Source: a virus. Taken from it: a stretch of DNA of 39,996 bases. Under the pieces are notes generated by a model. The model did no database searches and was not told the origin of the DNA. It worked only from the letters and a program-made list of their open reading frames with translations. The position numbers and the translations under genes were made by a program. The stretch lies in the IMG/VR virus record IMGVR_UViG_3300044613_003349, positions 1 to 39,996 of that record. One strand, 5' to 3'. This document shows positions 6,420 to 25,853 of this stretch, piece after piece (the first letter of the stretch is position 1; each line of letters starts with the position of its first letter).

Positions 6420-9400
6420 TTAACTAGATGTTGTCGGTGGTCCTGGTTGCGTCCAACCGCCTGGAGGTGGAGGAGTTGGAACAACTGGTGGTTTTTTCTC
6501 AAGTGCATAAGTAGGTTTAACTCTCAATGCCCAACCGTCTTCTGTGTTCACACCGAACTTGCCTAAGTCACCTTGAGGTACATCACGAGCTGCTACGTCA
6601 GCCATGTCTTGATAGTTTGCGCTGTATTTGTCGGCGTATTCTTTACCCTGACCTTCACCGTACACGACCTCACCGAGCTTAAGCATGCCTTGATACGCTA
6701 GTGCATTTGCTTCGTCGGTCCTGCCAGATAACCACAGTAAGTCTGCTTGTCTTTGAGTATTCATAAACGCAGATGTTGCTGCCATTATCGGGACCATTTC
6801 TTCCGGAACAATTGATGCGATTTCAACTGCAGCGTCAGCAAACGCTTGAATCATGTCCAGTCTTTGATTATTGAAGTTTCTTAGAGCGTCTTCCATTTGT
6901 TGTTGAAACGAGGTTTCAAAATCATCAAGGCTGTAGAGAACTCCCTGAGTTGCGCTACCTGCAACATCCGCTATTTGTTTAAACGACTCAGTAGTGTTTG
7001 CTTCGAAAAGACTGCCTGTTCCTAATAATCCCGATAGACTGTTCATAGTCTCAGCTAATCCAATATCAGATTGAGCAAACCCACGAGACATTGTTTGACT
7101 TGAACGACTAGCGTTAAGAAAAGCTAAAGGATCTTTTGACTTTGCTGCATCGGCTAGACTTGCAGCGTCATTTGCAATATCTAAAGGTCTAAACTGATTT
7201 TGAAACTGTTGATCGCTAATTTGTTGGCCCAATTGTTTTGCAGTTATTTTGTCTCCAAGAGTTTGTTGGAGCCATGTCTGGTTCGCATTTTGACCTGCTA
7301 TTGTTTTTGATGCATCTGGGCTTAATCGCACAATTGCTGAGTCAATTGCGGCCAATTGCGTTGGGTCGGTCACAGTGCTTCGCATGTTGCGTAGTTTTTC
7401 TAAAATTGGCTCTATTTCACTTCTTTTTGCGTCCTGTAAAGCTTGCCTGTTTGGGTCTGTAATAGACGATGCTTCGTATGCGGCGTCTGCTGTTCGTAAC
7501 GCATCAAAGTTTGCAGATAGCGAAGGATCAATTGCAACAAGGGCGTCCATCGTCGCAGTATCTTTTGCAAGGAAATTTTTTGAATCACCCTGTCCTAGAT
7601 GTTGAGAATACATGTCTTGCGCCCAATACTGTGATTCAACTGCTGCTTTGTCTGCTGGGTCAATGGCAGCCATGGCGATGCTTCTTGTAGCGTTTGCTCG
7701 TGTTACACCTTTAACAAGGTCGGCTTGCATGGTCATTTGTTGCATGGTTCGTGTGTAATTTAAATGAATGCTTTCTAATTGACGCATGCCGTTTCTTGCT
7801 ATGTCTTCAAGATTACGTTGGTGATTCTTATTCAGATCACGTTCTTGAATTGCATTACTCATTCCTCTTCTTTGAAGTTCGGCATTTGCATTTGTGGCAT
7901 TTGATACAAACTGCTGCCACTGCGAAGGAGCAATGCCAAGCGCGTTTTCTCGAACGCCTTGCGCGTTTACTGCCATCATGTCTCTTGAGTATGCTATTGT
8001 TCCTCGAGGTCCTGATGTGTACGGCATAACCATCGGTCCGCTACCTGAGTAAGGCTGTCCGTTAAGACCGTTCAAACTCGATATTGGATTACCGTTTTCG
8101 TCGTTTCCTCTAGGACGCAGTTGCATTCCAATCATGCTGTCATAACTAAACCCTGTCATTTGCTGTGCTAAGTCCAGGCCATACCGTGGGTTCCCTTCGG
8201 ACATTATATTCATAGTATCCATAAAAGAACGTCCAAGATCTTGTGCAGTGGATCCTGCCAAGTTCATGTACATAGCAAAGTTAGTGAAGCCCGACTTTAG
8301 TAATTGAGCTTCGGGTGCATTAGCTAAGGCTATAGCGCGATTTGTACGTCCAATATCCTGCTGCTCTCTAACTGCTGCTCGTTGAGCCTCAGTTACCATC
8401 TGCACTGTGTCTTCTGCACCTGCGCGATTACGGGGCATCAACCCGGAACGTTGTGCCATACGCACAGCTCTCGCTTCCGGAGTATTATCCATTACCAGGC
8501 CGGCGCTACCAGAACTTCCGTTAGCGTTAACTCCTGTTAAATTAGCTGTAGTTTGTTCCCCTAATCCCATAATTGATTGCCTTGCAAAGGCAGTTAGAGT
8601 AGTATCCACACGTTGTTGCCGTCTTTGAAAATTGCGATCCATTGTGCCGTCAAAAAAGTTTTTTGCTTCTTGTTTGTAGTCAGTTGGATTAAGCCCCTGT
8701 TGGTAAGTTTGATCAGCTGCTAATCTTATCTCCTCTGCAGTCATATTATTAACTTCTTCAGCAGACATTATTAAATAACGCATAGCTTCAGGTACTTTAT
8801 TCCACTCAACATCTGTGTATGTAATTTCTTCTATTTTAGCAGCAGCCTTATTAATTTGAGTTTGATATTTTTGACCTTCAGCTAAAGCTCCTGCTTCAAA
8901 CGCGTCGTCTCTCTTTTTAGTTAAGTCTACGATGTCTGCTCGAAGTGGAGAAGCCTTGGCTTCAGCTAACGCTCGTTTGTCTAACCTGGTTCCATATTTA
9001 ATGCCACGCTCAACTAATTTCTCATTTTCAATAAGTGCCCCAGTCTGCCCTATAGGCTTTAGTATTTCCTCACGCATTGAATCAAATTTTCTGTATGTGG
9101 TCGGATCTACGTCGGCTGTTTTTTTAAACGCAATAGTTTGAGCTTCGTAATCAACATACGACATCATGCTTTTCGATATTGGGTCGTATACCTGACGCTC
9201 TAGTATTCTCTTAGTTGCATCACCAGCTGTAGCAAATCGCTCTTGCCCACTTTTCGCAGCTTCTTCGTAATTTGCCAAATAAACTGGTCCTAACGAAGCG
9301 ATGCTCTCTTCCATAATTAGAGCAGTTGATTTTTTCGGGGTCCCAGTACCTGGAAGAACTGTAGCACCCGCTCCAAACCCAGGGGCAAGTACAATTTCCT

Positions 9401-12400
9401 TACTTGGCTTATCAGATCGATATTTAGAACCTCCGACATACTGACCGATCTGCTCAGCTTCTAAGTTTGCCTCAGCTGCAAAGCTAGTAAATACGTTCAT
9501 TTTTGCATTTTGTTGATTTAGCTCACTTTGCATTCTATACAATTCTCTCATTTTTTCAGGAGAACTATCTAACCGATCTGACACATAAGCCCCGCCTGCA
9601 TATAAACCTACGGCCGCCACGGCAGGAAGTGCTACTGCAGCGGCTATCTCAGCGGCCATCAACCCACCAAGGCCCGCTAATCCAGCTGTACCAAGTGTGG
9701 CGTTGGTAGCAAGCGCTGCTCCGCCTAAACCGGCTGCCGATCCTGCGACTGCAGATCCGCCCAAGCCTAATCCATATTTATTCCAAAAATAGGAACTGCG
9801 TACTTCTTCCGAAATTTCGGGAGTTCCTCCAAGGTTTAAATCTCTAGCTACTCTGTTTTGTGGGCCTACTCCATTATCAGCAACTACCTTCTCTATGTAT
9901 CCAAGACTATCTATAGTCTGTTTATCAAGTCCTTGCATAAAAGCGGAAGATGCGTTTCCGGTCGCTATCATCTCGAGCGAGTAGTTTTTACCCTCGCTAT
10001 TTAGCAGCTGAGCAACTACTCTATTGTTCTCGTCAATGTTTTTTAAAGTCCCTACCAGTGTAATTTCCGGTCCTTCTCCGGATTTATATTCCCCACCAAT
10101 CATGGCTCGGTCCATTCCTACTATATCAGCACCGCCAACACGAGCTGCAAACTCATCTTGAGTTCCTTTTTCCTGTGCGTCTATAACACCCGTTCTCACC
10201 CTGACCAAATCTTCACGTCCTGGTATTTCTATATCATACGTATCAGCGTCAACTTGCTTTCTTATTCTCCCCTTAGTCATAAGAGGTTTGTCTTTTACAG
10301 GCTCGTCATTAAAGTTAATATAGCCCAAGCCCAGAACGCTGAGATCTGTTGCACCTTGATCCGCTACAAGCAAACCAGCTTCGGCTTTTTTGTAAGCCTC
10401 TGCATACGCCGCGGGGTCAGCATTCACTTGCCTAGTTTTTAAAGACTCGCGCTGATTTAAAAATTCAGGACTTGAGTTGTAGTCACCAGGATTATTTCGC
10501 ATAGCTCGCATAATTGCCTGAGTTGCATTCATTCCCTGTGCTTGACCAAGCAGTGCCTCAAACTGAATGTTTGCTCGTTCCTGGGGCTTCATATTACCGA
10601 GAAGTCGATAACCGGGAACTGACACAGACGCGCCGGTAGCGCTATTATATCTTCCCGCCTGGCCGGCCATTCTTCCGTTCGCTGTTGCTAAAATTGTATC
10701 CATTTGAGAAGTAAATGTGCTTAAGCTGCCACCTATGTTAACGCTATCTAACCCAGTTTCTGGATCACTTAGTACGTCGTCTCCATACGAAGTAATAGTT
10801 TCTTTAAGTACGGTATTAAGTGAACGCTCTTTTACGTTCTTACCAAAGTACGACTGCTCTCCAATTAAAGATTCAAGCGCCGGAGTGATAAAGTCGACTA
10901 TCGCCGTAGTTGAGCTAATTTGCACACTTTCCAGATTACCGATCATCTTGTCGTATTTAGTCGCCATAGAGTTTGCTTGCTCATCAATAAGTCTATCAGT
11001 AACGCCCATACTTGAAAGAAGCTGATCAAGACTATCAAGCATTTGTGTTGCATCGCCGGTATTAATTTTAGAAAGCGCGGATCGATTAATTTCAAATCGA
11101 CGTGAGAGAGACGAAACGTTACCAGATAGAAATTCTTTGATTGCTATGCCAGCACCTTCCATACCTTGAGCTGGGTCAAACGCGGCTAATTTTCTAGCTA
11201 CTTTTACAGACTTTCCAATATCTACACCGTACGCGTTTGACAAAGGAATAAAGCTAGTAACTTGACCTAGATTTGAAGTTAATGAGCCGCCGAATTGCTT
11301 TCTCTGCATATCAGCCGCATTTAATGCGGCTGTATAATTCTCTGGATCAAGTGCTAACCCTCTTGCAGTCGTCATTACCCTGTTAGATCCTGTAGCACTA
11401 CTCGCAAACTGCTGAATCATTCCTCCGGCCATTTGCGGTATGTTTGCTAGACTAGTAACAGTATCAACTGCCGCTTGAACTACACTCTGCGTGTCTCTAA
11501 TTTTTGACGCGGCATAGAATAACTTATCGCCCATCGGTGCAGATCTTTTTGTCTGTTCGACTCTGCCGGACATTCGTGCTATACCTGTCATATCTTCGGC
11601 AGTAATATTAATACCTTGTTTTTGTAATCGTTCAACTGTGTCTCGCTGCTCTTGTACAGTTGCTTGCGCCATGTCAACACGTTTTCCTGTTGCTGTATAT
11701 GCTCTTATTCTTCCTCGGTGCATAAGGGCGTCTAGTCCTTCCTTACCGAAAGTGTCTCTTATGTATCCCTCTTGTATCTGCCTCATTTCTCTTTCACGTC
11801 TGCCGCCGGCAAAAAATCCAGGTCTACTTGCTGCTGCTTGCATTTGTTCTTCGACAAGCGAAACTTTCTTTCGATTGTCCGTTTCAATTACACCTGCAGT
11901 TCCCCGCTGTTCTTTTCCAGCCGCACTTGTTTCGTCAATAGCAGTTTGAACAACCGCCAAAGCTGCTGCTGCTTGAGGAGAGGTAGCTGCTATAGGAGTA
12001 AGCGCCGCTTTCAGCTTCTCTAATCCAGAAACTACAGTAAATAAGTCGTCAGCGACGTCTGTAATTGTACCGCCAACTTTTCCACTAAAATCTGTTAAAC
12101 TTTTAGCTGCATCATCATAAGCTGACTGTACTTCGGGACTTGTTGCTGCAATCGCTGCAATATCGGCGGCCATTCCCGGAGCTTGTATTCCCGAACTGTT
12201 AATCATTGTCGTTGCAGTACTGCGCGTAAGGTCTGTTAAAAATTTACGAGAATCGGCCGTTGTTCCGCCCGCAATACCCATAGACCCCGCTGATTGATCG
12301 AATGAGTTTCGCGCTAACTGTAGAAATACCTGCTCGTCTTCTTTCGCTTTTCTTGAGTAGTATTTACTTGCTGATGTTCCCGTACCAGTTCCGGATGTAG

Positions 12401-15400
12401 TACCGTACGGACTGTTTACATTGCGTGTACCACTTGCCGATCCAACGCGTTGTTCTATAGCGTTTAATTCGGTCAGTGCATTAATGAGCTCCTCAACCGC
12501 GGCTATTTCTGCTTTTAATCTTTCAATCTCTGTATCTCTTCCGCTTGTACCTTCAGGCAGTGCCTCTTGTGTAGCCAATTCGGTTGAGAGATTATTGAGA
12601 TTATACTGGGCCATTTCATTGTAAGAGACTAGTGCTTCTTCAGGACCCATTGGCAAAGCCGAAAGCGCCGCAAGCTGCGTCGGATTTAATACCTTCGCCG
12701 CTTTAGGTTTAATAACTTCGTTAATAGCCCGCTCGCTTGCATTTACAAGACTCTGACGCAGCGCGTCACGTGCTGCTGAATCGGTCTCATCTCTCAGTCT
12801 TGCGGATACCTCATTTTTTGTAGATTCCAGAACATTAAAAGAAGCCTGGTCCGCAAACGAAACTTTTCTATATTTGTTAGCTCCTGCACGCGGATCTGCA
12901 GTTGGTTTTGGTCCGTAAGGACTTTCAGCATTACGTGTTGCACCAGCTGCACCAACTCGTTGCTCAGCCTGATTAAGCTCGGTCAAAGCGTCTATAAGCT
13001 CGTGGACTTGCTGTATTTCTCTTTTAGTTCTCTCGATTGCTTCTTCACGACCCGGAGCATCTTCTCGCTCGCTCTCGATCATAAACAATCTACCGTTTAA
13101 TTCGCTAAGTTTGCTCTGCGCCGCCTGACTATAGTTAACTAATGAGTCTTCTGGAGATGTTGATAAGGCGTCGACAGTATTTACAAAACCATAGCCAAGT
13201 AGCTTTGTTGCTTTCGGTTTAATAATATCTGCAATTGCTTTTTTGCTCGCACCGGTTAGTGTTTCTTTTAATCTTGCCCTGGCTTCTGGATCTTGCTCAG
13301 TTCTCAGCTGCTCGCTTATTGAATTTTTTGTAGCGTCGAGTACGGCTAATGAAGCACGATCTTCTGGAGACAACTTTCGATAACCGCTATTATTCGTAGG
13401 ATATGCTGGTTTTTTTACTTCAGTAGGATCAACAATTGCTCTAGTTGAAGTTGCACTACCTACACGCTGCTCTGCTTGATTAAGTTCTGTAAGCGCATTG
13501 ATAAGTTCCTCAACTAACGATATTTGCTTTTGTATTCGCTGAATTTCTTCATCTCTTCCGTCAGTTCCTTCTGGAATTGCCTGTTGAGCTTCAAGTTGTG
13601 TAGTGAGGTCTTGATGTGCCTGTGCCACCGCGTCATTGTAATATGTCAACGATTCTTTAGAATCTGTTGTTTCATCCCCGTAGTAAAAACGTTCGTTGAC
13701 GTAAGGTTCCATACCTTCGCTATCAATTGCTTTTACCTTAGGCTCAATAATGGCGCGAATTGCTTGCCTGCTGACCTCATTGAGGTTACCGCGCAACCGT
13801 TCTCGTGTTGCTGGGTCAGTTTCTGTTTGAAGTTGCCCAGCTATCTGGTTTTTTGCTGCGTCAAGTTGATTTAATATAGATCTGTCAGCAACTGACACCC
13901 GTCGATAGCCACCGCCACCACCGCCCGTACCTACACTAGTGACATCGCCGTTTACGTTCATACCATCTTTATTTGATATGTACACTAACGATTTTTGCAT
14001 TTTCTCTGCAGCGCCTGCACTGAAGTTGGCATCTATAGTAACGTTACCACCATGAATGTTTATCTCTACCGCACCGGCATGCAACGTGTCGATAGTAGCC
14101 GAAGCTATTGTAGTAATACCGCCGCCAGGACCACCACGCTCGCCAGAGTCCGCGTCGTCTGAGAAAGTAACTGGTGGTTCTCTTGGGGGTTCTTTTGAGC
14201 CGCCGTCCGAAGTACTTGCAGTTACCGATGGTGCAGATCCGGGAGTTTTCACTTTTGTCGGTCTTTCAGTTGCTAATGATATATCTTCAATTGCATCGCC
14301 CACTGTTTCTTTACTTATGGCAGGACCAACTGTAACAGGCGACAAATCTGCAGTTGCAACTACATCCTCAATTGTTTTACCTTTAATGTCAGCAACACGT
14401 GCATCTTTTGCGCGAAAGTCACGAAACGACATACCTCCGCCTACTTTTTCTTCCAGCAGTCTTTTCATTCCGCCAAAATCTCCACCTACTGCGGCATCTG
14501 CATTGGGTTCTAAGTATTCTGTATTTATTTTTTTAACAAACTCTCCTAATTCCTCAGGGTTAAGTTCTTCTATTTTTTTCCCTTTGAGATCTCCTGCAAA
14601 CATACTGTTCATTCGATCGAATAAACTAGATTTCTCAGATGCACTCATATCGTACCAGTCTTGTTCAGCAGCGACTGTTCTATCGGCGTCCCTCAATATT
14701 GTTTTATCGCCGCGTCTTGCGATACGACGTGTAAATTCCTGCATGTCTGCCAATGGTCGGTAGAAAGAATGCGCGGCCGCCACTCGACTAGTCGCTTTCT
14801 TTCGTTCTTCCGCATCCGCAATGTCTTCTAACTTAGGCGTAGCAACAAGCTGACCAACAGTAGAATCCACTGCAATTCCGTGTTTTGCTAAGTATGCTTC
14901 TGTTACTTTTGCACGTTCCTCTGGATCTGAAACTTGCGGAAATATTCTTTGCACTGCTCGCGTGTCGACTGCAGCATCGTGAGCGTCAACTAACGGATCT
15001 CCAGTAACTGCTTCGTATGTTGCACCCAACGTATGTGATCCGGGATACATATCACGGCTCATCAACAAAGTGTCTTCTGTCTTTGCCTTTACTGCATCCG
15101 GAACGGCCATGGTACCGCCGTACACTGTTGGTAAGTCAAATTTTTGAATATTATGCCCTGCTACAGTAGTAGCACCTTCTATCTGCAGTTGTAAATTTTT
15201 ACGTATTTGACCTTGAGACATTATCTGACGACCTGACATTGCGGTATCAACTAACTTGTCGATGACTCCAGAACTAACGTCATTACCGCTTGCTCTACCC
15301 TCAACTAACGGAAGTTTGCCCTCTCGTTTAAGAGCTAACGCTCTAATTAGTTTTCTCTTCTCGTCATCGGGAATTGTGGGATCCGCTGCTATTCTGTTTA

Positions 15401-18400: not shown

Positions 18401-21400
18401 CGGTTGAAGCAGCATTTAGCACACTGGTAGTTACAGATTCAGATGAATCTGTAGGAGACACGGTTACTCCTAAATCTTGAAGAATTGCCTTATCTTCTTC
18501 AGCTAGCTTGTCTATTTCCTCGATTTTTTGAAGTCTTGCAGCAACATCTTCATTTTTTGCACGTATTCCTTGGTTAACTCTTCGCGCACGCTGTATATCC
18601 CACGATGGCTGGTGCATTTCGGGAGGATTGGACTCATCCTCAATTGCAAAATCCTCAAGCATCGCCCGCTTAAGTTTTAAACGATCTCTTTTTTTACTTT
18701 CTTCTGATTTTTCCTTAGAAGCTGGATCAGACGCAAGTAAATTGGCGCGCTCTATCAGCGCTTGAGCTGCTTCAGGGTTTTCGGCTGCGTTGTTGAGTAT
18801 AGCCGTAAGATCTTCCGGATTCCAAGAATCTCTATCTTTTTCGTCTTCCGGTGCCATAGATATGGCAGCACCTATAATATTTCCAAAGTCTAACCCAACG
18901 AATGGTGAATCTGTTGAAATTTCGCCATTTTCCATGTCCAGACCAAGTCTAGCAAACGCATCTAGAAGCGGCGGCATTCCGCTTTCTTGAGTGCCTTCTT
19001 TAATACCGCGATTTGCTCTTTTTTTGAGCGGTTCAAAACTCTCTATTTCTGATTGTCTTTTTTCTTCTTCGGGTTTTAGTAAACTATCTAATTTTTCTAT
19101 TTCAGAGTCTAATTGTGCTATGTATTCTTCTGAGGGCACGCTATCAAAAAGTTCTTCTACAAGTTCGTCAAAAACAGATTCTTGTTCTGCTCGGGACCCA
19201 GGTGCCTCATATGAGTATGCAAAGTTTGGCCGCTGGTATTCTTGTATAGTTACAGGGCCGGTAACAGATTGCTTCTCAATTTGTCTTTTTTTAGATCTTA
19301 TTGTAACTTCTTGAAGTGTTTTTAGTTTTTCAGTACGTTGTATTTCCTGCTCAAGCGCTGCTACTTTTTCCTCCCCTGCAGCTATTTCCTGATCTACTAT
19401 TGTTTGTGCATCTTCTCCGGTTATTGCTGCTTTTTTCTTTGCTTCTAGCTCAGTCAACTCAGCAGTCAATTCGATCATTTTTTGCGTTTGTTCGTTGCTA
19501 ATTGGAGTTTCTTCTTGATCGTTTGTAATTTCCCCTGACGCTACCATTGCCTGCAGTGCTACTAAAGCTTCTCGACCAGCAGCCACGTCTCTTTGAGTAC
19601 TCATTCTACTAGCGTCTATCTGACCAATTGCAGCGGAAAGCGGCAGTATTTGAACTCCTTGAGTTTCAAAATGAGTTGCCGCAGGTGATACGCTTTGAAC
19701 TCTACGCATGTAAAACGCATCAGTTGTTGTTGGAGAAATTGCAACAGGCACGTCAGCTTTAGGGTCGAACACCACTCCGAGTTCTTCTTGCGCCTCTCTT
19801 TCAGCGGCTTGCCATTGTGTTTGACCAGGATCAACAGTACCCATTACCGGAATGGCTACTCCTCTCCCTTTGTACGATTTTGTAGACTGCCCGACAACAA
19901 CCATTGGCTCGGATTGACCTGGTACAAAGAAATAAGGTACTGCTCCTGCAGAAGCTCGATTACTTGCAGAAGTATCGGGTACATTATCTGGTGTAATTGC
20001 CGAAACCTCCGGCATTACCTCAGGACCGACAGAAAGACCTAAAGTTTCGGCTACTGCAGCGTTTACAACTCTTGATGCATCACTGCCAGGAACTTCTGGA
20101 GAAATATCAATTCTACCCGTTTTTGCAAATCTTTCACTTATCTGCTCTGGATAATCTGCGGTCAGCGGTAAAGTGCTGCGTCTTGACATGTACGTAAGCT
20201 CACCGTGTGATACATCTGGGTGAACATACGTTCGTCCTGCTACTTGACCTTGGCCCGTTACTCCTCTTTCTGCTGCTTCTCTTGCAAGTTTAGTTGCGGG
20301 AGATTCTAATGCTGCTATCTCTCCTTGTACTCTTGCTATTTCTTCGTCTATTGTTTCTGGTGTTGAAATTACTGATACTGGAGTTTCTGGTGTTGCAGTT
20401 TCCGATGCGGTAGTCAATATTCCCCGTTTTACAAGTTCTCCCTCAATTGCCTGAATATTAGCTTCTGTAACTACTTTAGCTTTTCTTGCACTTATTGGCC
20501 GAGTTTGCTCAGCTGCTTCATACTCTTTTTGAGCTCGATGCGCCTCGTCTCTTGCTTTGAAAACTTTTTGCATTTCCGGTGTTTGTTGCAATCTTTGTAA
20601 CGTGGCTTTATTTTCTTCAGCTTCCTCGTAACTTAGGGAATTTCTTTTTAAGCGTGCCTGTAATGCTGCATCGTATTCATCGACAATATCTTTATGTGTT
20701 AGTTCAATCAGATTTAAAAGCGATTTTTTTCGCTCAAATTTATCTTTAGCTCTTTCTATATCTTCTTGACGTTCTTTTTCTAATCTTTCATCTATGTCTG
20801 GCTCGTCAGTCATCGCTTGCTTTATCTGACTTAGTTTACGTTTTTCTTGTGCTAAAGACGCCTCTAAATGCTCGGTAGATTGAGTTTCGCTAAATGATTC
20901 TTTAACAAGTCCGCCAGTCTTTACTACAGGACCTATTTGCTCGCTTCCCGTAATACCTATAAAACTTCGGTCGTCTTGCAAAGTACCCAACTCCCCCTCG
21001 TCAAGAAGCAGTCTTTCACCTAAGCCAACAAAACCTTCGGTATCGACCTCTGGATCTAGTTTACTAAATTGTCCGCTATGACTGTATGCATCGGACGCTA
21101 AGAAAACACGTGCCGGAGTTTTTGATTCAACTGCCAAAACCCTGCCTTCATGCATAATTCCGCTTTCAGTAGCCCCAATTGCCGCAGTCGAAGGTCCTGT
21201 ATATCCACCTTTATCTTCGCCCAGCGTTTCTTTAGAAATACCTAGGTCAGCTGATTCTATTAAAGCGTCTCCGGCAGTAACAAATTCATGCTTGTAGCCT
21301 TCTGAACTTCTTGTTCTGCGGTAAGCCGCGAACGTAGCACCAGCAATTTGTCCGGAATCTTTTTTATCTTGCCTACTATGTAAATATTTTATAAGTTCGC

Positions 21401-24400
21401 CAACAGTTGGGCTTGTTCCGGCTTCTTCAAATGGTTTTAAAAATTCTATAAATTGGTTTCTTGATTCATCCGTTTTCTGCAAACCTGCGCGGTTTAACAT
21501 AAGTCTAGCAGTCGAATCTTTGTCATCTGCTGCAAAAAGTTGTAAAAGGTCGTTTACTTCGGTTTGTGCTGATCTATTATTGACTCTTGCTAGAATTGAT
21601 TCGGTTGTAAACGGCTCGTCTGCGGGTAAATTAGCAGCTTCCTGTACCAGCATTTCTGCTAAATGTGTAGAAAACCAAGCTTTACTGACTCCATCAGCCA
21701 CTGCTGCAGTAAGTGTACCTGTTTCCGCATTTTGACGGATGGCTAGTCTATCTTGATTTCCTTTTGCTTCTTGTTCTTCCTTAGAAGCTAAAAACGCGAC
21801 AAAGGCCGGAGATTCTATAAGTTGATCTTCTCCAGTAGTCGAGTGTACAAAAACTGACTCATCCTCGGCTGTAACATCTTCGGTAATATTTTTTCTTTCT
21901 GTAAGATTTATTCTAGGGATTTTTAAAGGTACGGCGTTTTCGTCTATTGCTATTTCTTCATCTATTGTATCAGCATAAGATAAAACATCAATCGCTTTTT
22001 CTGAACCCGCACCTTCTGACCTCATGTCACTAATGTCTTTTTTAACTGCTGCAATTTCCCCGTCAACGTCTGATTCTTTAATTACAGCTTCAACTGCCTT
22101 AGCGGGACCATCTCCAGGTAATTCTGCTTCTAACGCTGCTCGTTCTTCTCTTAGTTTTTGCAGATTATCTAGCTTAGCTTTATGAGCCATCAAGTTAGTA
22201 AGGCGTTGCTCTTGAGTACCAGTTCCGTATCCTTGAGATTCGTCAATCTGGTATCGGCCAGTTTGATTAAAAATTTCCTGCATGATGCCTAAATCGTAAA
22301 TTGCACCACTTCTCGTCGCGGGGTCAATATTGTCCATTTGGGCAATTGTGGAAAGATATTCAAATTTTTGAGAAATAGGATCTGGTTCCGATGCTTTGTA
22401 AGTAGCAAGTTTTTGCTTAAGGATCTTTAGTTGATTGTTTTTTTGATCTATAACCGGAAGTATTTTATCTGCTTCGTGAGGTGCTAAAGCTATTCTGCTT
22501 CGCATTTCTTCTATTTCTGCAGTTAATTGCTCAAACTCACGCATTGCTTCTTGAATTTTTATTTCATTTTCTACGTTGCGGCCATACGCACCACCGACAA
22601 CTTGACCAGACTCTTGGTTTGCAACTTCTGCACCCTTGCCCAACAAGCTGTAAGACGCTCCTTGATCAGGAACGGCTGCAGCTACATCCGGACCCGTACC
22701 AACTAGTCGGTCCTGTCTTCCTAAAACTCGGGCTGCAAACTGAGGCATACCTTCGCCTGACTGCACGTTGTCAGTTAATAAATTGCTGAACAACGAAAGC
22801 GATCGGTTAACCGCTGCAGATACATCGGTTGTGTTTATGTTAGCAGGATCAAACATCGCTAAAGCGCGAAATTCATCTTGAAACCCTGCTGGAGCAACCC
22901 CGGCTGTTTCGTAATCCGAAATCATTTGAGTGACTTCATCAACTCCCATGCCGGCAGCGCCACCTCGTCGCCTAATTGAAGCAACTATTTGATTTTTTAT
23001 TGCTGGGGCTGCCAAAGTCAACACGCGTTTAATTAATTCTTTGGGATCCATCGACGTGTCTAACTCAGCAAGTTGCTTAAGTGATTCAGAATCTATCGCT
23101 TGCAGATGCGGAAGTTTAGCTTGCACCTCTTGAAATAGACTCTGCTCTTCTGCGTCAAGGTCGGTTGAAGTTGCTAACTTAGCATACTCAATTAAGGGAA
23201 TACCGCCAGAGCCGTAACTACCCATTTCTGCGGATGCTTGAACAATTGATTGCAAACCTTTCTTTGTTCTGTAGCCACCACCAAGCGATTGATCAAGCTC
23301 TTCTCCCTCAAGCATTTTACCGCTGGCGTCTGTCGCACGTGCTGCATGATACATACCAGTAATGACATTACCCGCAGAAGCAGACTGTCGAGATAAACCA
23401 AAAGCATCACTTATAATTTCGATAAACTCTCGATTTTGCTGACCTGACGATACTGTGCCGGCTGAGTCTAACTGCTGCGTAATTGGCGTAGTTTGATAGC
23501 GGTCTAGTGCCATAGACTGACCGGACGTCATATACTCTACTAACGACTGTACGGGACTAGTTCCATAAGAGGGCCTTGCTGGAATTGTGAGTCCCGATTG
23601 TGCAAGTCCCGCAGAAACTTCCTGAGCCTTGCTCATAATCGGCGCTACCGCATCAGGTGTTGCAGGAATGGATCCAATAGACTGTTTAAATAAAACAGTT
23701 AGTGCTTGATCTCGCGTTAACGCCGGAGCTGTGTTACTGCCCGGAAGTGCTATCTGTCCACGTCTTTGCGCTAACTTTTTTTCCTCTTCTGGATTTTCAG
23801 ATTCAGCCAGAATCTCATCCAGTAACTGTATCTCTTTGCCAAGCTTTGCCGACTCAGTTCTGTAGCGATTAGCCATTGCTGGAGCCGCAGTTACCATACT
23901 GAGATCCGCCTGATCTCTCTGATAAACAAGTCTTTCGCGCAAACGTTTTGCGTGAGTTACTGCCAACGTAACTTCCTGTTCTTGTTCCGGAGCAACTGTC
24001 TGCTCTACAAAACGACTAGCGGACTGATCTGAAACAGCCCCTGTCGAAGTATATTGATTTATTAAATCGCCCGCAAACAAAGCAACAAACTTTCGTACTG
24101 GATCTCCAGTAACTATCGCCCCTCTAGGTCCCCGAGTTCCAGCCATTCTACCAAAAGCTGTTGTGTGTTCTGACAAAATTGAACTAGATTGAATCGCCTC
24201 CACAACCATTTTTGCAAGAGATTCAGGCAAGTCTACAGTCTGCCCTGCGATCGAAGCGGGCCTTATGTTTCCTTCTTCTATGTCCTGCATAACGGTTGAA
24301 AAGAGCGCGTCAACCGCCTTTTGTACTTCGGCGTCCATGCCCCCACCGAAAACGGCGCTTGAGCTTCCGGCTACTACTTGGGAACCGGCACGAACGTCTA

Positions 24401-25853
24401 CGCCTTGCGCTTCCGAACTGTAACGACGCGTAGGATTTAGTGAAGCTTTAAGTGATTGAATATACTTTGAAATGTTAGCACCAATTCTGGTTACCTGTCC
24501 CGGAAATACTCGGCTACTCCGTAAAGCGTCTACTACTTGAGGACTACCGTCTTCTCCGGCATTTTGTATGCTAAAGTCAGTTCCCAAAAATAACGCAGAA
24601 GAATCTACTTCTTCTGCAGTACCTGGATCGACTGTTCGGCTTCTTGGTATTACCGGTCGAGTCGTTGCTTCTGCAACTACCGTTTTCAATCTTTTCAGCA
24701 ACTGATCAAAAGCCGCCGGACGTAAAAACTCAAAACCTTCAGTACTTAAAGCTGTTTCTCCTACTCTTCCTGCTGCACCATTCTCAAGTCTAGTTACCAA
24801 CATTTCAACGGCTCTGGTTAGAGCGGACTCAATTTCAGAACTGCTAGCTACTGGAGACATTGCCGCATTAAGTATAGGGTCGTCTAATTTTACTGCCCGC
24901 AATGCTTCAATAATTGGGGCAATAATTGATTCTTGTGCCGTTTGTCGCTGTGTGTTGCTTACTGTGCCAGAAGATTGATTTATCTTTTTGAATGCTTGCT
25001 TAATTTGCTGATTTATTCTATTTTTGTCCGCAGGAACAGTTGCCTCTTCTCGGTCTTTTACAAGTTTTTGAAGTTCGGCGACAATCGGGGCAATTTCCGG
25101 ACGAGTTTCGGCTGGATTTTCGTGACGCAGTTGAGTATTCACATATTTAACAATTGCCGAAACGGAGGCGTTTTCGGGAGGCCTTGCTCCGCCCGATTGA
25201 GCTACGCTGACTCGTCCTCCTCGATTCGGTGTAACAGCATAACTTGTAGCGGAACGAGTATCCGGTGTAGTAAGTGCCCATTTCATGTCTGCGTACTCAG
25301 GATCCGCAACTGGTGAACTTGATTGAGAGCTTCTTACCGAAGTTCTCATCTTAGCTTGTGTTCTTCTAACCATATCCCTAAGAGTATCTTCTCGTTCATC
25401 TATTTGCTGATCTAGTTGTGCGAGCAAAAGTTCAAAGTTAATGCTTCTGTCTGTATGTCTTTTTACAACCGCTGGCCTGTTCTCACCACGAATCTCCTGT
25501 ACTCTTGCTCTTCTCTCTTCGTCTAGTTTGTCTTGTACTTCCTTACGCCTACGTGCTGCATCCGAAACTACAGGTGTTGAACGAACACCGCCCGAGACAG
25601 GACTTTCGTCAGCTGATGATTTTACTGAAAGTGAGCTTACAACTTTAATCTCATTTTCTAACTCGTTGATAACTTTGCTAGCTATTTTAGCATCTGCTGT
25701 AATTTCTTTTAAATATCCGGCTAAACCACCTTCGTGTGCGTTTGCTTTGCTTTGTATAACCTTCTCAAAAACAATAGCGGCTTCCTCACTAGTACTTTTT
25801 AAAAGCGTTAGTGTTTCAATTAACTCTACTAATTGTTGTATTTTAACTGACAT
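6420..25853 (-). CDS. Giant multidomain tape measure protein, 6477 aa
   Basis: One unbroken frame of 6477 residues, placed exactly where the tape measure lies: behind tail tube and chaperones G/GT, before the tail-tip genes. Tape measures set tail length and leave the tail during DNA entry. Order seen: coiled and low-complexity N-terminus (1-1350); PP2C phosphatase (about 1355-1640); coiled coils; Nudix (about 1968-2075); ADP-ribosyltransferase-like (about 2570-2830); long coiled coil (2850-3000); DEDDh exonuclease (about 3438-3645); Gly-rich linker (3890-3980); 170-175-residue repeats (3983-4510); tape-measure core (about 4690-5080); SNase-like (5193-5305); hydrophobic Ala/Gly stretch (5360-5423); Gln/Ala-rich helical region; Pro-rich tail PTPPPPGGW. 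The start ATG is 11 bases after the T stop with GGTGG upstream. At 0.15 nm per residue the full chain would span about 970 nm, an upper limit because globular domains do not span tube. The enzyme roles are inferred from motifs; whether the chain is processed is unknown. Confidence 0.93.
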   Translation of the reverse strand: MSVKIQQLVELIETLTLLKSTSEEAAIVFEKVIQSKANAHEGGLAGYLKEITADAKIASKVINELENEIKVVSSLSVKSSADESPVSGGVRSTPVVSDAARRRKEVQDKLDEERRARVQEIRGENRPAVVKRHTDRSINFELLLAQLDQQIDEREDTLRDMVRRTQAKMRTSVRSSQSSSPVADPEYADMKWALTTPDTRSATSYAVTPNRGGRVSVAQSGGARPPENASVSAIVKYVNTQLRHENPAETRPEIAPIVAELQKLVKDREEATVPADKNRINQQIKQAFKKINQSSGTVSNTQRQTAQESIIAPIIEALRAVKLDDPILNAAMSPVASSSEIESALTRAVEMLVTRLENGAAGRVGETALSTEGFEFLRPAAFDQLLKRLKTVVAEATTRPVIPRSRTVDPGTAEEVDSSALFLGTDFSIQNAGEDGSPQVVDALRSSRVFPGQVTRIGANISKYIQSLKASLNPTRRYSSEAQGVDVRAGSQVVAGSSSAVFGGGMDAEVQKAVDALFSTVMQDIEEGNIRPASIAGQTVDLPESLAKMVVEAIQSSSILSEHTTAFGRMAGTRGPRGAIVTGDPVRKFVALFAGDLINQYTSTGAVSDQSASRFVEQTVAPEQEQEVTLAVTHAKRLRERLVYQRDQADLSMVTAAPAMANRYRTESAKLGKEIQLLDEILAESENPEEEKKLAQRRGQIALPGSNTAPALTRDQALTVLFKQSIGSIPATPDAVAPIMSKAQEVSAGLAQSGLTIPARPSYGTSPVQSLVEYMTSGQSMALDRYQTTPITQQLDSAGTVSSGQQNREFIEIISDAFGLSRQSASAGNVITGMYHAARATDASGKMLEGEELDQSLGGGYRTKKGLQSIVQASAEMGSYGSGGIPLIEYAKLATSTDLDAEEQSLFQEVQAKLPHLQAIDSESLKQLAELDTSMDPKELIKRVLTLAAPAIKNQIVASIRRRGGAAGMGVDEVTQMISDYETAGVAPAGFQDEFRALAMFDPANINTTDVSAAVNRSLSLFSNLLTDNVQSGEGMPQFAARVLGRQDRLVGTGPDVAAAVPDQGASYSLLGKGAEVANQESGQVVGGAYGRNVENEIKIQEAMREFEQLTAEIEEMRSRIALAPHEADKILPVIDQKNNQLKILKQKLATYKASEPDPISQKFEYLSTIAQMDNIDPATRSGAIYDLGIMQEIFNQTGRYQIDESQGYGTGTQEQRLTNLMAHKAKLDNLQKLREERAALEAELPGDGPAKAVEAVIKESDVDGEIAAVKKDISDMRSEGAGSEKAIDVLSYADTIDEEIAIDENAVPLKIPRINLTERKNITEDVTAEDESVFVHSTTGEDQLIESPAFVAFLASKEEQEAKGNQDRLAIRQNAETGTLTAAVADGVSKAWFSTHLAEMLVQEAANLPADEPFTTESILARVNNRSAQTEVNDLLQLFAADDKDSTARLMLNRAGLQKTDESRNQFIEFLKPFEEAGTSPTVGELIKYLHSRQDKKDSGQIAGATFAAYRRTRSSEGYKHEFVTAGDALIESADLGISKETLGEDKGGYTGPSTAAIGATESGIMHEGRVLAVESKTPARVFLASDAYSHSGQFSKLDPEVDTEGFVGLGERLLLDEGELGTLQDDRSFIGITGSEQIGPVVKTGGLVKESFSETQSTEHLEASLAQEKRKLSQIKQAMTDEPDIDERLEKERQEDIERAKDKFERKKSLLNLIELTHKDIVDEYDAALQARLKRNSLSYEEAEENKATLQRLQQTPEMQKVFKARDEAHRAQKEYEAAEQTRPISARKAKVVTEANIQAIEGELVKRGILTTASETATPETPVSVISTPETIDEEIARVQGEIAALESPATKLAREAAERGVTGQGQVAGRTYVHPDVSHGELTYMSRRSTLPLTADYPEQISERFAKTGRIDISPEVPGSDASRVVNAAVAETLGLSVGPEVMPEVSAITPDNVPDTSASNRASAGAVPYFFVPGQSEPMVVVGQSTKSYKGRGVAIPVMGTVDPGQTQWQAAEREAQEELGVVFDPKADVPVAISPTTTDAFYMRRVQSVSPAATHFETQGVQILPLSAAIGQIDASRMSTQRDVAAGREALVALQAMVASGEITNDQEETPISNEQTQKMIELTAELTELEAKKKAAITGEDAQTIVDQEIAAGEEKVAALEQEIQRTEKLKTLQEVTIRSKKRQIEKQSVTGPVTIQEYQRPNFAYSYEAPGSRAEQESVFDELVEELFDSVPSEEYIAQLDSEIEKLDSLLKPEEEKRQSEIESFEPLKKRANRGIKEGTQESGMPPLLDAFARLGLDMENGEISTDSPFVGLDFGNIIGAAISMAPEDEKDRDSWNPEDLTAILNNAAENPEAAQALIERANLLASDPASKEKSEESKKRDRLKLKRAMLEDFAIEDESNPPEMHQPSWDIQRARRVNQGIRAKNEDVAARLQKIEEIDKLAEEDKAILQDLGVTVSPTDSSESVTTSVLNAASTEIARMILEDRAPSADRPVLSVDELRVGRNEELHKLPEEILDVGLAGNKNTLRETIGFESARRTQGMTGPAITVPTLAGLLANKDQLLLDKDGQPILIYRGEDEDQVAAKQGETPLAYEAVEREGDPLAVFPSEFPMAMGGGSRYGEGLYHTSTRTGSETDEEQSPDTSREVAHGYRSKSVEGEIRSSVNVSALLSTASLLDADSEMIQKAQQRVDERRIALGLTPLPKDTASAMRGGVEDVMEELYREKVDPTARLQSDILNEADMLMLPYGGGSSNINLGVKSYPVSRRTDVPEEVQTRLQALHEEFVAAPKPDELAVAMGYDAIRYRAEHNPNTPVHLNLFNAAATALVLDPVIPNTAKHLGSESLSLQVEPTLREEAKYSETERRAQELQSQLEQQKQQLEALKARSEALKQEAAAASTPSVDVTAVTEESKRVADETVKVSADIKVPTEEIQKRKADVDAKIAEAEQAVAQSQQVIELMQRQAQGLDTEDSDIRFVVDNTGIPVSYEDKQVIDRTSLRPLVRTKMTVDDTGESGFVSNLNVRDIVDQAEAVKPTAELMDEISKMSDADLAAVKMPRATLSPEDQAIDDELKRKSREAQNYASRLYNTEGPISAAIKEYYRTPSGDRKDELLKTHPELKTIVDEIQKQENLVIQHDASRAALTAPAVAAAESSASPLQLAARLFRSSRAAVRAYETEFGVEPAFSAREVMDELLASSARAEVDSAPAGSAETAVALDKTISSFEGGIPEIKGSTDRAPRRPRRAPADVVADVEQPYTENQLKYARAQVRALAGRTDLTAEQKRQLSEARKKLHNYAMKRLTTNFGDNKGVMQIANVVAGLTPPDWAKDDVQSARVSAISQAMASLKPIQLAKLKDADLTNPVQMDILSRDPALQPIMAMLADQDIESVLKFRSGTTEYDEAKGLLGAIKGARERIVVPEPDEPTTSTAAEAKRLFFDLETNIAKKPEDRLIFQAATGVNDGAVTDMYAVPLDSSAEEINRIAADPTIPDDEKRKLIRALALKREGKLPLVEGRASGNDVSSGVIDKLVDTAMSGRQIMSQGQIRKNLQLQIEGATTVAGHNIQKFDLPTVYGGTMAVPDAVKAKTEDTLLMSRDMYPGSHTLGATYEAVTGDPLVDAHDAAVDTRAVQRIFPQVSDPEERAKVTEAYLAKHGIAVDSTVGQLVATPKLEDIADAEERKKATSRVAAAHSFYRPLADMQEFTRRIARRGDKTILRDADRTVAAEQDWYDMSASEKSSLFDRMNSMFAGDLKGKKIEELNPEELGEFVKKINTEYLEPNADAAVGGDFGGMKRLLEEKVGGGMSFRDFRAKDARVADIKGKTIEDVVATADLSPVTVGPAISKETVGDAIEDISLATERPTKVKTPGSAPSVTASTSDGGSKEPPREPPVTFSDDADSGERGGPGGGITTIASATIDTLHAGAVEINIHGGNVTIDANFSAGAAEKMQKSLVYISNKDGMNVNGDVTSVGTGGGGGGYRRVSVADRSILNQLDAAKNQIAGQLQTETDPATRERLRGNLNEVSRQAIRAIIEPKVKAIDSEGMEPYVNERFYYGDETTDSKESLTYYNDAVAQAHQDLTTQLEAQQAIPEGTDGRDEEIQRIQKQISLVEELINALTELNQAEQRVGSATSTRAIVDPTEVKKPAYPTNNSGYRKLSPEDRASLAVLDATKNSISEQLRTEQDPEARARLKETLTGASKKAIADIIKPKATKLLGYGFVNTVDALSTSPEDSLVNYSQAAQSKLSELNGRLFMIESEREDAPGREEAIERTKREIQQVHELIDALTELNQAEQRVGAAGATRNAESPYGPKPTADPRAGANKYRKVSFADQASFNVLESTKNEVSARLRDETDSAARDALRQSLVNASERAINEVIKPKAAKVLNPTQLAALSALPMGPEEALVSYNEMAQYNLNNLSTELATQEALPEGTSGRDTEIERLKAEIAAVEELINALTELNAIEQRVGSASGTRNVNSPYGTTSGTGTGTSASKYYSRKAKEDEQVFLQLARNSFDQSAGSMGIAGGTTADSRKFLTDLTRSTATTMINSSGIQAPGMAADIAAIAATSPEVQSAYDDAAKSLTDFSGKVGGTITDVADDLFTVVSGLEKLKAALTPIAATSPQAAAALAVVQTAIDETSAAGKEQRGTAGVIETDNRKKVSLVEEQMQAAASRPGFFAGGRREREMRQIQEGYIRDTFGKEGLDALMHRGRIRAYTATGKRVDMAQATVQEQRDTVERLQKQGINITAEDMTGIARMSGRVEQTKRSAPMGDKLFYAASKIRDTQSVVQAAVDTVTSLANIPQMAGGMIQQFASSATGSNRVMTTARGLALDPENYTAALNAADMQRKQFGGSLTSNLGQVTSFIPLSNAYGVDIGKSVKVARKLAAFDPAQGMEGAGIAIKEFLSGNVSSLSRRFEINRSALSKINTGDATQMLDSLDQLLSSMGVTDRLIDEQANSMATKYDKMIGNLESVQISSTTAIVDFITPALESLIGEQSYFGKNVKERSLNTVLKETITSYGDDVLSDPETGLDSVNIGGSLSTFTSQMDTILATANGRMAGQAGRYNSATGASVSVPGYRLLGNMKPQERANIQFEALLGQAQGMNATQAIMRAMRNNPGDYNSSPEFLNQRESLKTRQVNADPAAYAEAYKKAEAGLLVADQGATDLSVLGLGYINFNDEPVKDKPLMTKGRIRKQVDADTYDIEIPGREDLVRVRTGVIDAQEKGTQDEFAARVGGADIVGMDRAMIGGEYKSGEGPEITLVGTLKNIDENNRVVAQLLNSEGKNYSLEMIATGNASSAFMQGLDKQTIDSLGYIEKVVADNGVGPQNRVARDLNLGGTPEISEEVRSSYFWNKYGLGLGGSAVAGSAAGLGGAALATNATLGTAGLAGLGGLMAAEIAAAVALPAVAAVGLYAGGAYVSDRLDSSPEKMRELYRMQSELNQQNAKMNVFTSFAAEANLEAEQIGQYVGGSKYRSDKPSKEIVLAPGFGAGATVLPGTGTPKKSTALIMEESIASLGPVYLANYEEAAKSGQERFATAGDATKRILERQVYDPISKSMMSYVDYEAQTIAFKKTADVDPTTYRKFDSMREEILKPIGQTGALIENEKLVERGIKYGTRLDKRALAEAKASPLRADIVDLTKKRDDAFEAGALAEGQKYQTQINKAAAKIEEITYTDVEWNKVPEAMRYLIMSAEEVNNMTAEEIRLAADQTYQQGLNPTDYKQEAKNFFDGTMDRNFQRRQQRVDTTLTAFARQSIMGLGEQTTANLTGVNANGSSGSAGLVMDNTPEARAVRMAQRSGLMPRNRAGAEDTVQMVTEAQRAAVREQQDIGRTNRAIALANAPEAQLLKSGFTNFAMYMNLAGSTAQDLGRSFMDTMNIMSEGNPRYGLDLAQQMTGFSYDSMIGMQLRPRGNDENGNPISSLNGLNGQPYSGSGPMVMPYTSGPRGTIAYSRDMMAVNAQGVRENALGIAPSQWQQFVSNATNANAELQRRGMSNAIQERDLNKNHQRNLEDIARNGMRQLESIHLNYTRTMQQMTMQADLVKGVTRANATRSIAMAAIDPADKAAVESQYWAQDMYSQHLGQGDSKNFLAKDTATMDALVAIDPSLSANFDALRTADAAYEASSITDPNRQALQDAKRSEIEPILEKLRNMRSTVTDPTQLAAIDSAIVRLSPDASKTIAGQNANQTWLQQTLGDKITAKQLGQQISDQQFQNQFRPLDIANDAASLADAAKSKDPLAFLNASRSSQTMSRGFAQSDIGLAETMNSLSGLLGTGSLFEANTTESFKQIADVAGSATQGVLYSLDDFETSFQQQMEDALRNFNNQRLDMIQAFADAAVEIASIVPEEMVPIMAATSAFMNTQRQADLLWLSGRTDEANALAYQGMLKLGEVVYGEGQGKEYADKYSANYQDMADVAARDVPQGDLGKFGVNTEDGWALRVKPTYALEKKPPVVPTPPPPGGWTQPGPPTTSS
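9585..9776 (-). other. Hydrophobic Ala/Gly segment in tape measure (residues about 5360-5423)
   Basis: About 60 residues of almost only Gly, Ala, Val, Leu and Ile (for example GLGGLMAAEIAAAVALPA, then VGLYAGGAY) with no charge except one Glu. It is long enough for two membrane passes. Tape measures commonly carry such segments, thought to insert into the inner membrane and help DNA pass. It follows the SNase-like domain directly. Confidence 0.65.
9939..10277 (-). other. SNase-like (thermonuclease fold) domain in tape measure (residues about 5193-5305)
   Basis: The stretch VDADTYDI followed by VRVRTGVIDAQE matches the staphylococcal nuclease pattern 'DGDT ... R-x4-D-x2-E'. The spacing is exact: R5220, D5225 and E5228 line up with Arg35, Asp40 and Glu43 of the S. 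aureus enzyme, and D5204/T5205 with Asp21/Thr22. Further on, DENNRVVAQLL and a closing ATGNA match the 'DKYGRgLAyi ... rqGlA' end, with R5278 in the place of Arg87. All main catalytic and calcium-binding residues therefore appear kept. Known SNase enzymes cut DNA and RNA to 3' nucleotides. Activity in this protein is inference. Confidence 0.68.
10614..11786 (-). other. Tape-measure core region (residues about 4690-5080)
   Basis: Helical sequence with features of the conserved siphovirus tape-measure domain: a run of 'LAAFDPAQGMEGAGIAIKEF' type, then SRRFEINRSAL, then an Asn-Leu-Glu-Ser segment before DFITPALESL. These match the phrases I know from tape measures of the TP901/PhageMin family, where a predicted helical domain binds chaperones and tube. 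This region identifies the whole gene as the tape measure. Confidence 0.75.
12318..13907 (-). repeat. Tandem 170-175-residue repeats in tape measure (3 full copies plus a partial)
   Basis: Copies begin at residues 3983, 4158, 4328 and 4498 (nucleotides 13907, 13382, 12872, 12362), so the spacing is 175, 170 and 170 residues. Each full copy opens with Tyr-Arg-(Arg/Lys)-(Val/Leu)-Ser, continues with an acidic helical stretch, and closes with (I/L)INALTELNQAEQRVG or LIDALTELNQAEQRVG or a close variant, then a Gly/Ser/Thr linker. The fourth keeps only the opening. They are protein-level repeats that have diverged at DNA level, which suggests old duplications. Such helical repeats could act as spacers that change measured tail length. 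Confidence 0.85.
14919..15542 (-). other. DnaQ-like DEDDh 3'-5' exonuclease domain in tape measure (residues about 3438-3645)
   Basis: All three Exo motifs are present: motif I FFDLET (D3444, E3446), motif II AGHNIQKFDLP (D3573) and motif III DAHDAAVDTRA (H3625, D3630). Those five residues bind two metal ions in the DnaQ family, and the His makes it the DEDDh type. The distance from motif I to II (about 127 residues) is longer than usual, with an acidic insertion holding a KRKLIRALALKREGK stretch. The family trims DNA or RNA 3' ends. Its place inside a tape measure is unexpected. Confidence 0.75.
17364..18146 (-). other. ADP-ribosyltransferase-like (polyvalent-protein type) domain in tape measure (residues about 2570-2830)
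   Basis: It opens with LLDKDGQPILIYRGEDE (Y2582, R2583), the 'd.dG.P.vvYrG' entry of phage polyvalent-protein ADP-ribosyltransferases. A strand SRYGEGLYHTS (Y2633) follows, then a Ser-Arg-Glu-Val-Ala-His-Gly-Tyr segment that fits the 'A..Y' element after it. The end is AMGYDAIRYRAEHN then HLNLFN, like the 'GYDgi ... vvf' close of the family. The catalytic Glu cannot be fixed by eye. These enzymes move ADP-ribose from NAD onto proteins or nucleic acids. The assignment is from memory of the family pattern. Confidence 0.58.
19629..19952 (-). other. Nudix hydrolase-like domain in tape measure (residues about 1968-2075)
   Basis: A Nudix box spans G2005 to V2027: Gly, five residues, then (position 7) Gln2011 instead of Glu, seven residues, then R2019-E2020-A-Q-E2023-E2024-L-G-V. 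The metal-binding REUXEEXGU part is complete. It is preceded by strands (AVPYFFVPG, then GVAIPVMG) that fit the Nudix fold, and followed by a strand with DAFYMRRV. Nudix enzymes split nucleoside diphosphates linked to another group, such as NAD, ADP-ribose or dinucleotide polyphosphates. The Gln for Glu change occurs at a less critical site. Confidence 0.66.
20934..21791 (-). other. PP2C/PPM-type protein phosphatase domain in tape measure (residues about 1355-1640)
   Basis: The ordered PPM motifs can be read: GNQDRLAI (D1368), AVADGVS (D1387, G1388), SGQIAGATFAAYRR (the 'gGaT' strand), AGDALIES, VFLASDAYS (D1588) and LQDDRSFIGI (D1627, D1628). These aspartates form the two-metal site in PP2C phosphatases, and their order and spacing fit a 285-residue domain. 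The family removes phosphate from Ser or Thr. The target could be host Ser/Thr kinases or a phosphorylated defence protein, which is a guess. Confidence 0.75.

Follow-up and report, generated by a model that had tools for sequence, protein, structure and literature searches.

Phages and conjugative elements encode polyvalent proteins, long single chains that combine several unrelated domains of effector type and are presumed to be delivered together with DNA (Iyer et al. 2017, PMC5512222). ADP-ribosyltransferases (ARTs) are among their common cargoes, with a link to Nudix domains also mentioned, and Nudix, SLOG, DUF4326 and ART domains have been placed in one viral NAD+/ADP-ribose network whose members are often packaged in the virion (PMC9503650). 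The term "tape measure" occurs zero times in the text of these two papers, and a third names the tape measure once, as an ordinary DNA conduit (PMC7824862). Here we describe a giant tape measure gene from the virus record IMGVR_UViG_3300044613_003349 of IMG/VR; the window that we analysed is the whole of this linear record, 39,996 bases long. The gene (6420..25853, minus strand, as are all features within it) encodes 6477 residues. The original prediction, made from the letters of this DNA, credited the chain with at least five enzyme-like domains; SNase, DEDDh exonuclease and Nudix domains can be assigned firmly and a PP2C phosphatase domain probably, while the ART-like domain was not confirmed. 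From sequence comparison with its relatives, we consider it about an even call that the gene encodes a siphophage tape measure doubling as a polyvalent effector carrier, in which a constant ruler unit is joined to an exchangeable cargo zone, and that this cargo is injected.

The reading frame predicted earlier was recovered as 6477 uninterrupted codons, from an ATG at 25853 to a TAA ending at 6420. It recurs in G001, an IMG/VR record of 82,652 bases that encodes a chain of equal length with 99.985% amino acid identity, even though the window DNA is absent letter-for-letter from that record. Because G001 carries the same gene, the length is no artefact of one record, and the open reading frame is real. 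Judged by its place, the gene is a siphophage tape measure: as the original prediction had it, the gene sits where a tape measure belongs, directly after a pair of tail-assembly chaperone frames and before genes that are Dit/Tal-like by position, and this tail gene order is kept in relatives. The tape measure core described earlier as normal is recognised by position and conservation, and not by a curated tape-measure model: the whole chain had no Pfam tape-measure match, six scanned pieces of it had no NCBIfam match, and the one match to a tape-measure family was to PHROG phrog_305, at an E value of only 0.0045.

Scanning IMG/VR with the C-terminal core identified 15 records that hold the family (G001 to G015, with G001 the near-twin of the window and G002 a sister phage). 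Their chains comprise, in that order, 6477, 5521, 4590 (cut), 5155 (cut), 5350, 4813 (cut), 2614 (cut), 3990, 2399 (cut), 2709 (cut), 4476, 4470 (cut), 5119, 5041 and 4665 residues. A later scan with the conserved N-terminal domain (residues about 330-1230, 22164..24866) added one 16.6-kb fragment, contig L072. In INPHARED no relative was found with six protein queries (tape measure pieces, head protein, terminase, ART, PP2C), and among GTDB contigs none of 107 candidate stretches belonged to the family. BLAST was first run without composition correction and then repeated with composition statistics; by BLASTP with these statistics, the N-terminal domain is present at least in part in 10 of the 15 relatives (G001-G004, G008, G011-G015), with no match in G005 or G006; three further records, G007, G009 and G010, are truncated at the 5' end. 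Pfam scans covered the N-terminal parts of the relatives except for some larger stretches, namely G002 outside residues 1290-1950 (aligned to the window chain), residues 1-1239 of G004, 1-639 of G006 and 2551-3442 of G013, G009 outside its SNase stretch, and G012.

The chain falls into two parts that behave differently across the family. From window residue 4642 to the end, the length is 1677-1849 residues with a coefficient of variation of 3.1% (n = 13 chains with an intact C-terminal end, leaving out G001 and including the near-duplicates G009, G011 and G012). The part before residue 4642 ranges twofold, from 2275 to 4641 residues, with a coefficient of variation of 18.9% (n = 10 chains with an intact N-terminal end). 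The constant part begins with the tape measure core block (residues 4642-5145, 10419..11930), for which identity ranges from 36 to 98% across 14 relatives (all but G001), followed by the SNase domain (residues 5190-5330, 9864..10286). Downstream lies a hydrophobic segment, presumably a membrane hairpin (residues 5360-5425, 9579..9776), which by hydropathy is the sole one in the window chain at the threshold used; G007, G008 and G014 have further hydrophobic segments elsewhere. The remainder (residues 5426-6477, 6423..9578) is presumed to be the tail-tip end by analogy with TP901-1 (PMC5099701). Within it, blocks near residues 5700-6048 and 6286-6445 are conserved in most relatives with an intact C-terminal end.

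The SNase motif was found in 16 of 16 chains, and the hydrophobic segment starts 142-227 residues after it in all 15 chains compared. Residues D5202, R5220, D5225, E5228 and R5278 correspond to D21, R35, D40, E43 and R87, which we take to be the catalytic residues of Staphylococcus aureus nuclease, and their equivalents are invariant in all 14 aligned chains (G001 and G012 were left out of the alignment as near-duplicates). Twelve of these 14 members match PF00565 at an E value of 0.01 or better (best 1.7e-12); the window domain alone scores 18.3 bits, below the cut-off of 21, and the family profile (A2) matches thermonuclease at 3e-16. The SNase assignment is firm, the domain looks active, and it is a constant part of the family, the other domains being variable.

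The DEDDh exonuclease domain (residues 3438-3640, 14934..15542) shows the motifs DxE, NxxxxD and HxxxxD (D3444, E3446, D3573, H3625, D3630) and a supporting family profile. phmmer detected it in seven of the 15 relatives (G001, G002, G003, G004, G007, G013, G014), with no match in six others and G009 and G010 cut and hence uninformative. Across a seven-row alignment the D, D, H and D positions are kept in every row and the E in six of seven, being lost in G007 only. The profile built from this alignment (A3) matches PDB chains named exodeoxyribonuclease III at an E value of 2.4e-9 and PolC at 0.039. The window stretch alone had no Pfam match and, among PHROG families, matches the DNA polymerase exonuclease subunit phrog_192 at 1.5e-6. 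In G014 the corresponding stretch alone reaches 35.4 bits against PF00929 (cut-off 24) and about 1e-7 against PolC/DnaQ models, far below their full-length cut-offs. We regard the DEDDh call, made from these profiles, as firm. Profile searches of the predicted intervals thus confirmed DEDDh and SNase through relatives and Nudix by its own Pfam match.

The Nudix domain (residues 1980-2110, 19524..19916) matches PF00293 with 30.2 bits (cut-off 21.1, E value 5e-7), and its best match among PDB Nudix chains has an E value of 0.011. Its box (residues 2005-2027) reads GX5QX7REAQEELGV against the standard GX5EX7REUXEEXGU, so that the first glutamate is replaced by glutamine. On the profile match the call is firm. 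Both Nudix and the ART-like stretch were seen only in the window and G001: the loose Nudix motif RExxEE occurs in these 2 of 16 chains, and the partial Pfam scans of the relatives' N-terminal parts gave no Nudix.

The PP2C-like domain (residues 1360-1640, 20934..21776) is matched by PF13672 at an E value of 3.8e-4 over model positions 6-175 of 209. Residues D1368, D1387, D1588 and D1627/D1628 stand at what we presume to be the PP2C metal-site motifs, and these motifs are intact in the window and G002. A PP2C profile search returned 2 of 11 records searched, G001 (1.1e-5) and G002 (7.4e-5 per record), all below the cut-off. From these motifs and sub-threshold matches we consider the domain probable. 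A DGAS motif in G004 was first read as PP2C and was dropped, as the profile search found no PP2C there.

The candidate ART-like stretch (residues 2570-2850, 17304..18146) was recognised from the motifs YRGE (2582-2585), GEGLYHTS (2629-2636) and GYDAIRY (2806-2812), and the earlier ADP-ribosyltransferase call proved to be a motif reading without a profile match; PF18760 (ART-PolyVal) matched none of the 7 records searched. The stretch is remotely similar to a duplicated module on an unrelated contig, L064 (E values 3e-5 and 0.004 with composition statistics). Without composition correction the similarity scores 45.1 bits against at most 28.9 in 300 shuffled copies, and with correction 33.9 against 25.0 bits. 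Because a coiled segment of the window chain (residues 1481-1851) scores nearly as high, 41.6 bits, in the same uncorrected test, this evidence is weak, and an ART-like domain is possible only. The L064 module stands in two copies in a multidomain protein of 1846 residues (L064:7313-12847) on a 100-kb phage contig; the module had no match in Pfam or INPHARED.

Comparison with related phages, which had been proposed as a check, revealed that domains come and go. Relative to the sister phage G002, the window chain has about 1,000-1,080 residues more in a cassette that holds the Nudix and ART-like stretches (residues about 1863-2906, 17136..20267, defined by BLASTP and MAFFT gaps). Its edges depend on the aligner: the BLASTP gap spans residues 1862-2858, the MAFFT gap covers 1080 residues from residue 1827, and composition-corrected alignment places it at 1848-2907. 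At residue 1296 the window has 109 residues fewer than G002. A linker, TIDEEIA, occurs at residues 1296-1302 (21944..21971), where G002 has the 109 extra residues, and again at 1834-1840 (20330..20357), near the edge of the cassette; the two copies form a 28-nucleotide direct repeat of 89% identity at or near both break areas. Between window and G002 the identity is 94% over residues 1-1295, 60% in the PP2C zone and about 87% over 2858-6463. Moreover, 859 consecutive codons (residues 3842-4700) are identical in DNA, whereas alignable 100-residue windows range from 58% to 100% DNA identity, indicating that the two genes are recombinants.

Other relatives likely carry different domains in the same zone, judging by profile matches: SLOG in G005 and G006, where the cpYpsA-type match of G005 reaches 30.3 bits (cut-off 26.2), and DUF4326 in G011 and G015. 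An R2K_2 ATP-grasp match in G011 (0.0038) was dropped, as it sits in a coil rich in lysine and glutamate. The stretch that follows the SLOG-like match in G005 (residues 780-960, L025:13911-14453) has no Pfam match; by eye, and presumably, it is ASCH-like. Several unrelated effector domains, some below cut-off, are thus found in one chain and vary between relatives, as in polyvalent proteins. The original prediction was right on the anatomy and over-confident on ART and PP2C and, having one sequence, was blind to this exchange.

The ratio of nonsynonymous to synonymous change (dN/dS), obtained by a simple counting method for the single pair of window and G002, is 0.08 for SNase, 0.14 for DEDDh and 0.31 for PP2C. 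Elsewhere it is 0.65 in the coil after PP2C, 0.50 over residues 2858-3119 and 3690-4000, and 0.35 over 3119-3425 before DEDDh. Purifying selection keeps the enzymes; some neighbouring stretches are also low, and SNase and PP2C are not singled out from all their neighbours.

The whole tape measure chain lacks cysteine: none occurs in any of the 16 chains, 73,866 residues in total. Other open reading frames of six of these contigs contain 0.79-1.14% cysteine, predicting 42-59 per chain. The lack is not due to base composition, since the other two same-strand frames of the window gene hold 136 and 370 cysteine codons. Among eight control tape measures (lambda, HK97 with its first codons missing, P74-26, TP901-1, sk1 by position, A118, T5 pb2 and P2 gpT), seven have no cysteine and P2 gpT has one; 22 hand-picked genes near the controls average 0.70%, with five having none. 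Within the window, 16 other minus-strand open reading frames hold 23 cysteines in 4,606 residues (0.50%), from which about 32 would be expected in the tape measure. Cysteines are present in the related ART-like modules of L064. We see no reason why an N-terminal half released for use in the producing cell should have been purged of cysteine, and its lack along the whole chain is in our view the best sign at hand, though no proof of injection, that the cargo shares the fate of the tape. Freedom from cysteine is possibly a general regularity of tape measures; it was seen in this family and the controls, and was not taken from a published definition.

Based on these observations, we propose the following model. 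The C-terminal ~1,840 residues are the constant unit (core, SNase, presumed membrane segment and presumed tail-tip end), and upstream lies the cargo zone, where recombination swaps enzyme modules. In the window chain these are PP2C, Nudix and the ART-like stretch; relatives have domains of the SLOG or DUF4326 type instead, and DEDDh is found in seven of 15. In TP901-1 the C-terminus of the tape measure lies at the tip complex and the N-terminus toward the head, and the first hydrophobic region is essential (PMC5099701). By analogy, the chain would exit C-terminus first on adsorption, its hydrophobic segment inserting into the inner membrane. All enzyme-like domains found lie N-terminal of this segment, and they would therefore be expected to follow, the N-terminal enzyme-bearing part passing into the cell ahead of the DNA. 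Since the lumen of a tail tube is only ~4 nm wide (PMC9022992, in part), the chain would have to pass, and probably sits in the tail, largely unfolded or extended, with which the absence of cysteine agrees. Once inside the host, SNase and DEDDh may degrade host nucleic acid, whereas Nudix, PP2C and perhaps ART could act on signals or modifications. Nudix, together with the domains exchanged among relatives, points to NAD+/ADP-ribose chemistry, of the kind that serves defence. A wider version of this idea, for which our confidence stops somewhat short of even, is that the tape measure is a general protein-delivery device with swappable counter-defence enzymes (NAD+/ADP-ribose chemistry, phosphatase, nucleases), cysteine-free for threading and refolding in the host before the DNA arrives.

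Several observations weigh against this model. A lumen of ~4 nm offers no obvious room for several folded enzymes side by side. The S. aureus type of SNase needs calcium, which argues for action outside the cytoplasm. The PP2C match scores 20.5 bits, below the PF13672 cut-off of 24; a two-row PP2C profile matched no PP2C chain in the PDB, the stretch was unmatched by BLAST against E. coli PphC, and its AlphaFold2 model (from 2 sequences) was unusable, with a pLDDT of 39. The ART-like stretch matched nothing in Pfam or NCBIfam, and its AlphaFold2 model (3 sequences) was likewise unusable (pLDDT 32). For the exchangeable domains, the SLOG match of G005 drops to 20.2 bits when cut shorter, that of G006 is 19.3, and both DUF4326 matches (18.8 in G011, 19.3 in G015) are below the cut-off of 25. 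As for selection, the flanks of SNase also have low dN/dS (0.06 over residues 4975-5190, 0.18 over 5330-5900), and the value for PP2C equals that of residues 1-300 (0.32). Finally, 8 of 22 other open reading frames of the window are cysteine-free too, including the probable head protein and an 843-residue protein on the tail-tip side (the largest), and the head protein has no cysteine in any of six records.

The strongest competitor, although we think it unlikely, is a polyprotein, whose N-terminal part would be cleaved away before leaving the producing cell, with its enzymes acting there, in late host takeover or in control of nucleotides or signals, so that only the C-terminal part enters the tail. 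The C-terminal part is constant in length and the N-terminal part is not, as such a scheme would have it, and processing of a tape measure is known for lambda gpH. For polyvalent proteins, release of the parts by peptidases is presumed (PMC5512222). In the window chain, however, we found no peptidase Pfam match and no HExxH motif that could separate the parts, and HExxH occurs in only 2 of the 15 relatives (G003 and G004). Furthermore, the entire N-terminal part, cargo included, is as free of cysteine as the control tape measures, for which we see no reason in cytosolic enzymes.

Less probable again is that the chain is a plain ruler, all 6477 residues setting the tail length, at nearly 1 micrometre, with the enzyme folds as captured, inactive filler. 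At the rise of a helix, 0.15 nm per residue, 6477 residues would span about 970 nm. There is precedent for such a length in P74-26, which has a 5006-residue tape measure and tails over 800 nm long (PMC9022992, in part). Filler would not account for SNase and DEDDh catalytic residues that are invariant or nearly so. Nor does a ruler fit with the comparison between the window and G005, whose tail tube proteins are 89.5% identical, yet whose tape measure N-terminal halves are unmatched with composition statistics, or with a module of ~1000 residues that is present or absent between sisters.

We give equally little weight to the idea that the domains are aids to entry rather than cytoplasmic weapons, acting at the envelope or on DNA as the phage enters (SNase, for instance, might remove DNA from the periplasm or from outside the cell). 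The phage-like gene string BtI1 also encodes a tail hub protein with an SNase-related domain (PMC2147016). In our family, too, SNase lies near the hydrophobic segment. The calcium dependence of the S. aureus type counts in favour of this idea as well; however, it leaves unexplained Nudix, PP2C, SLOG and DUF4326, the usual substrates of which are cytoplasmic. That an error of sequencing or assembly joined adjacent genes, for which no supporting point was found, is very unlikely, to the point of being negligible: the window and G001 chains are 99.985% identical along all 6477 residues, the separate contig L072, whose name places it in another sample, coincides with G002 at 100% for 2950 residues, and relatives show long chains in the same gene order.

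The neighbourhood of the gene is that of a tail operon. Upstream of the tape measure the minus strand carries head genes, a probable tail tube gene and two overlapping frames. The tail tube candidate (26608..27045, minus) is assigned by position; it shares 72-96% identity with its counterparts in 8 relatives, not counting G001, and had no PHROG or Pfam match. The first frame of the chaperone pair (26126..26527, minus) matches phrog_389, XkdN-like, at 2.6e-4 and phrog_344, tail assembly chaperone, at 0.0087; the second (25864..26238, minus), directly before the tape measure gene, has a homologue in 10 of the 15 relatives. Overlapping tail chaperone pairs are an arrangement for programmed frameshifting; the lambda G/T frameshift is -1, and in the pair at 25864-26527 (minus) a +1 or -2 shift would be needed to reach the second frame from the first. 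The two genes on the other side (4206..6361, minus) are Dit/Tal-like by position and synteny in relatives, and had no family match in PHROG or Pfam.

Elsewhere in the window, an intein-like insert splits the terminase large subunit (37173-39767, plus); it scores 34.1 bits against PF14890, just below the cut-off of 35.8, lies at residues 80-414 and is followed by a Terminase_6C match. A MazG-type pyrophosphohydrolase gene (33714-34052, plus; 29.4 bits, cut-off 22) adjoins one for a B12-dependent (class II) ribonucleotide reductase (34317-36470, plus). G001 (L013) and G002 (L017) have three tRNA genes in common (Leu-TAA, Met-CAT, Arg-TCT).

Looking forward, should injection of the enzyme part hold true, siphophages would use tape measures to carry early-acting anti-host proteins, a role for which head packaging has been assumed so far in the sources available to us. 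It could then be tested which stretches of giant environmental tape measures are cargo and which are ruler. Lack of cysteine may serve as an easy marker, read from sequence, of the parts that accompany the tape, and it bears on whether tape measures cross the tail in unfolded form. No tape measure with this set of domains appeared among the open-access literature matches listed, going by titles and the beginnings of abstracts.

In comparison with known systems, the chain resembles polyvalent proteins in joining unrelated effector domains, and differs in that its carrier is a tape measure, where the available passages of PMC5512222 describe packaged, portal-fused or conjugative proteins; unlike those, the window chain yielded no peptidase domain and SNase is constant in the family. 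With the NAD+/ADP-ribose network it shares Nudix, SLOG, DUF4326 and possibly ART, while that network, in the passages at hand, concerns head packaging, mostly in myoviruses, with PP2C absent from them (PMC9503650). An SNase domain in a tail protein is shared with BtI1, where it sits in a hub related to T4 gp27 and where the homologue in 0305phi8-36 has wall-degrading domains instead (PMC2147016, in part). Lastly, an enzyme domain inside a tape measure has precedents in TM4, with a peptidoglycan hydrolase motif (known to us from the reference list of PMC5099701), and in P74-26. The 5006-residue gp95 of the latter (L081:471-15491) is annotated "contains metalopeptidase domain" and may be another cargo-bearing tape measure. 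In each of these precedents one enzyme-type domain is named, whereas the chain described here has three firmly assigned and up to five enzyme-like domains, none of them a wall hydrolase.

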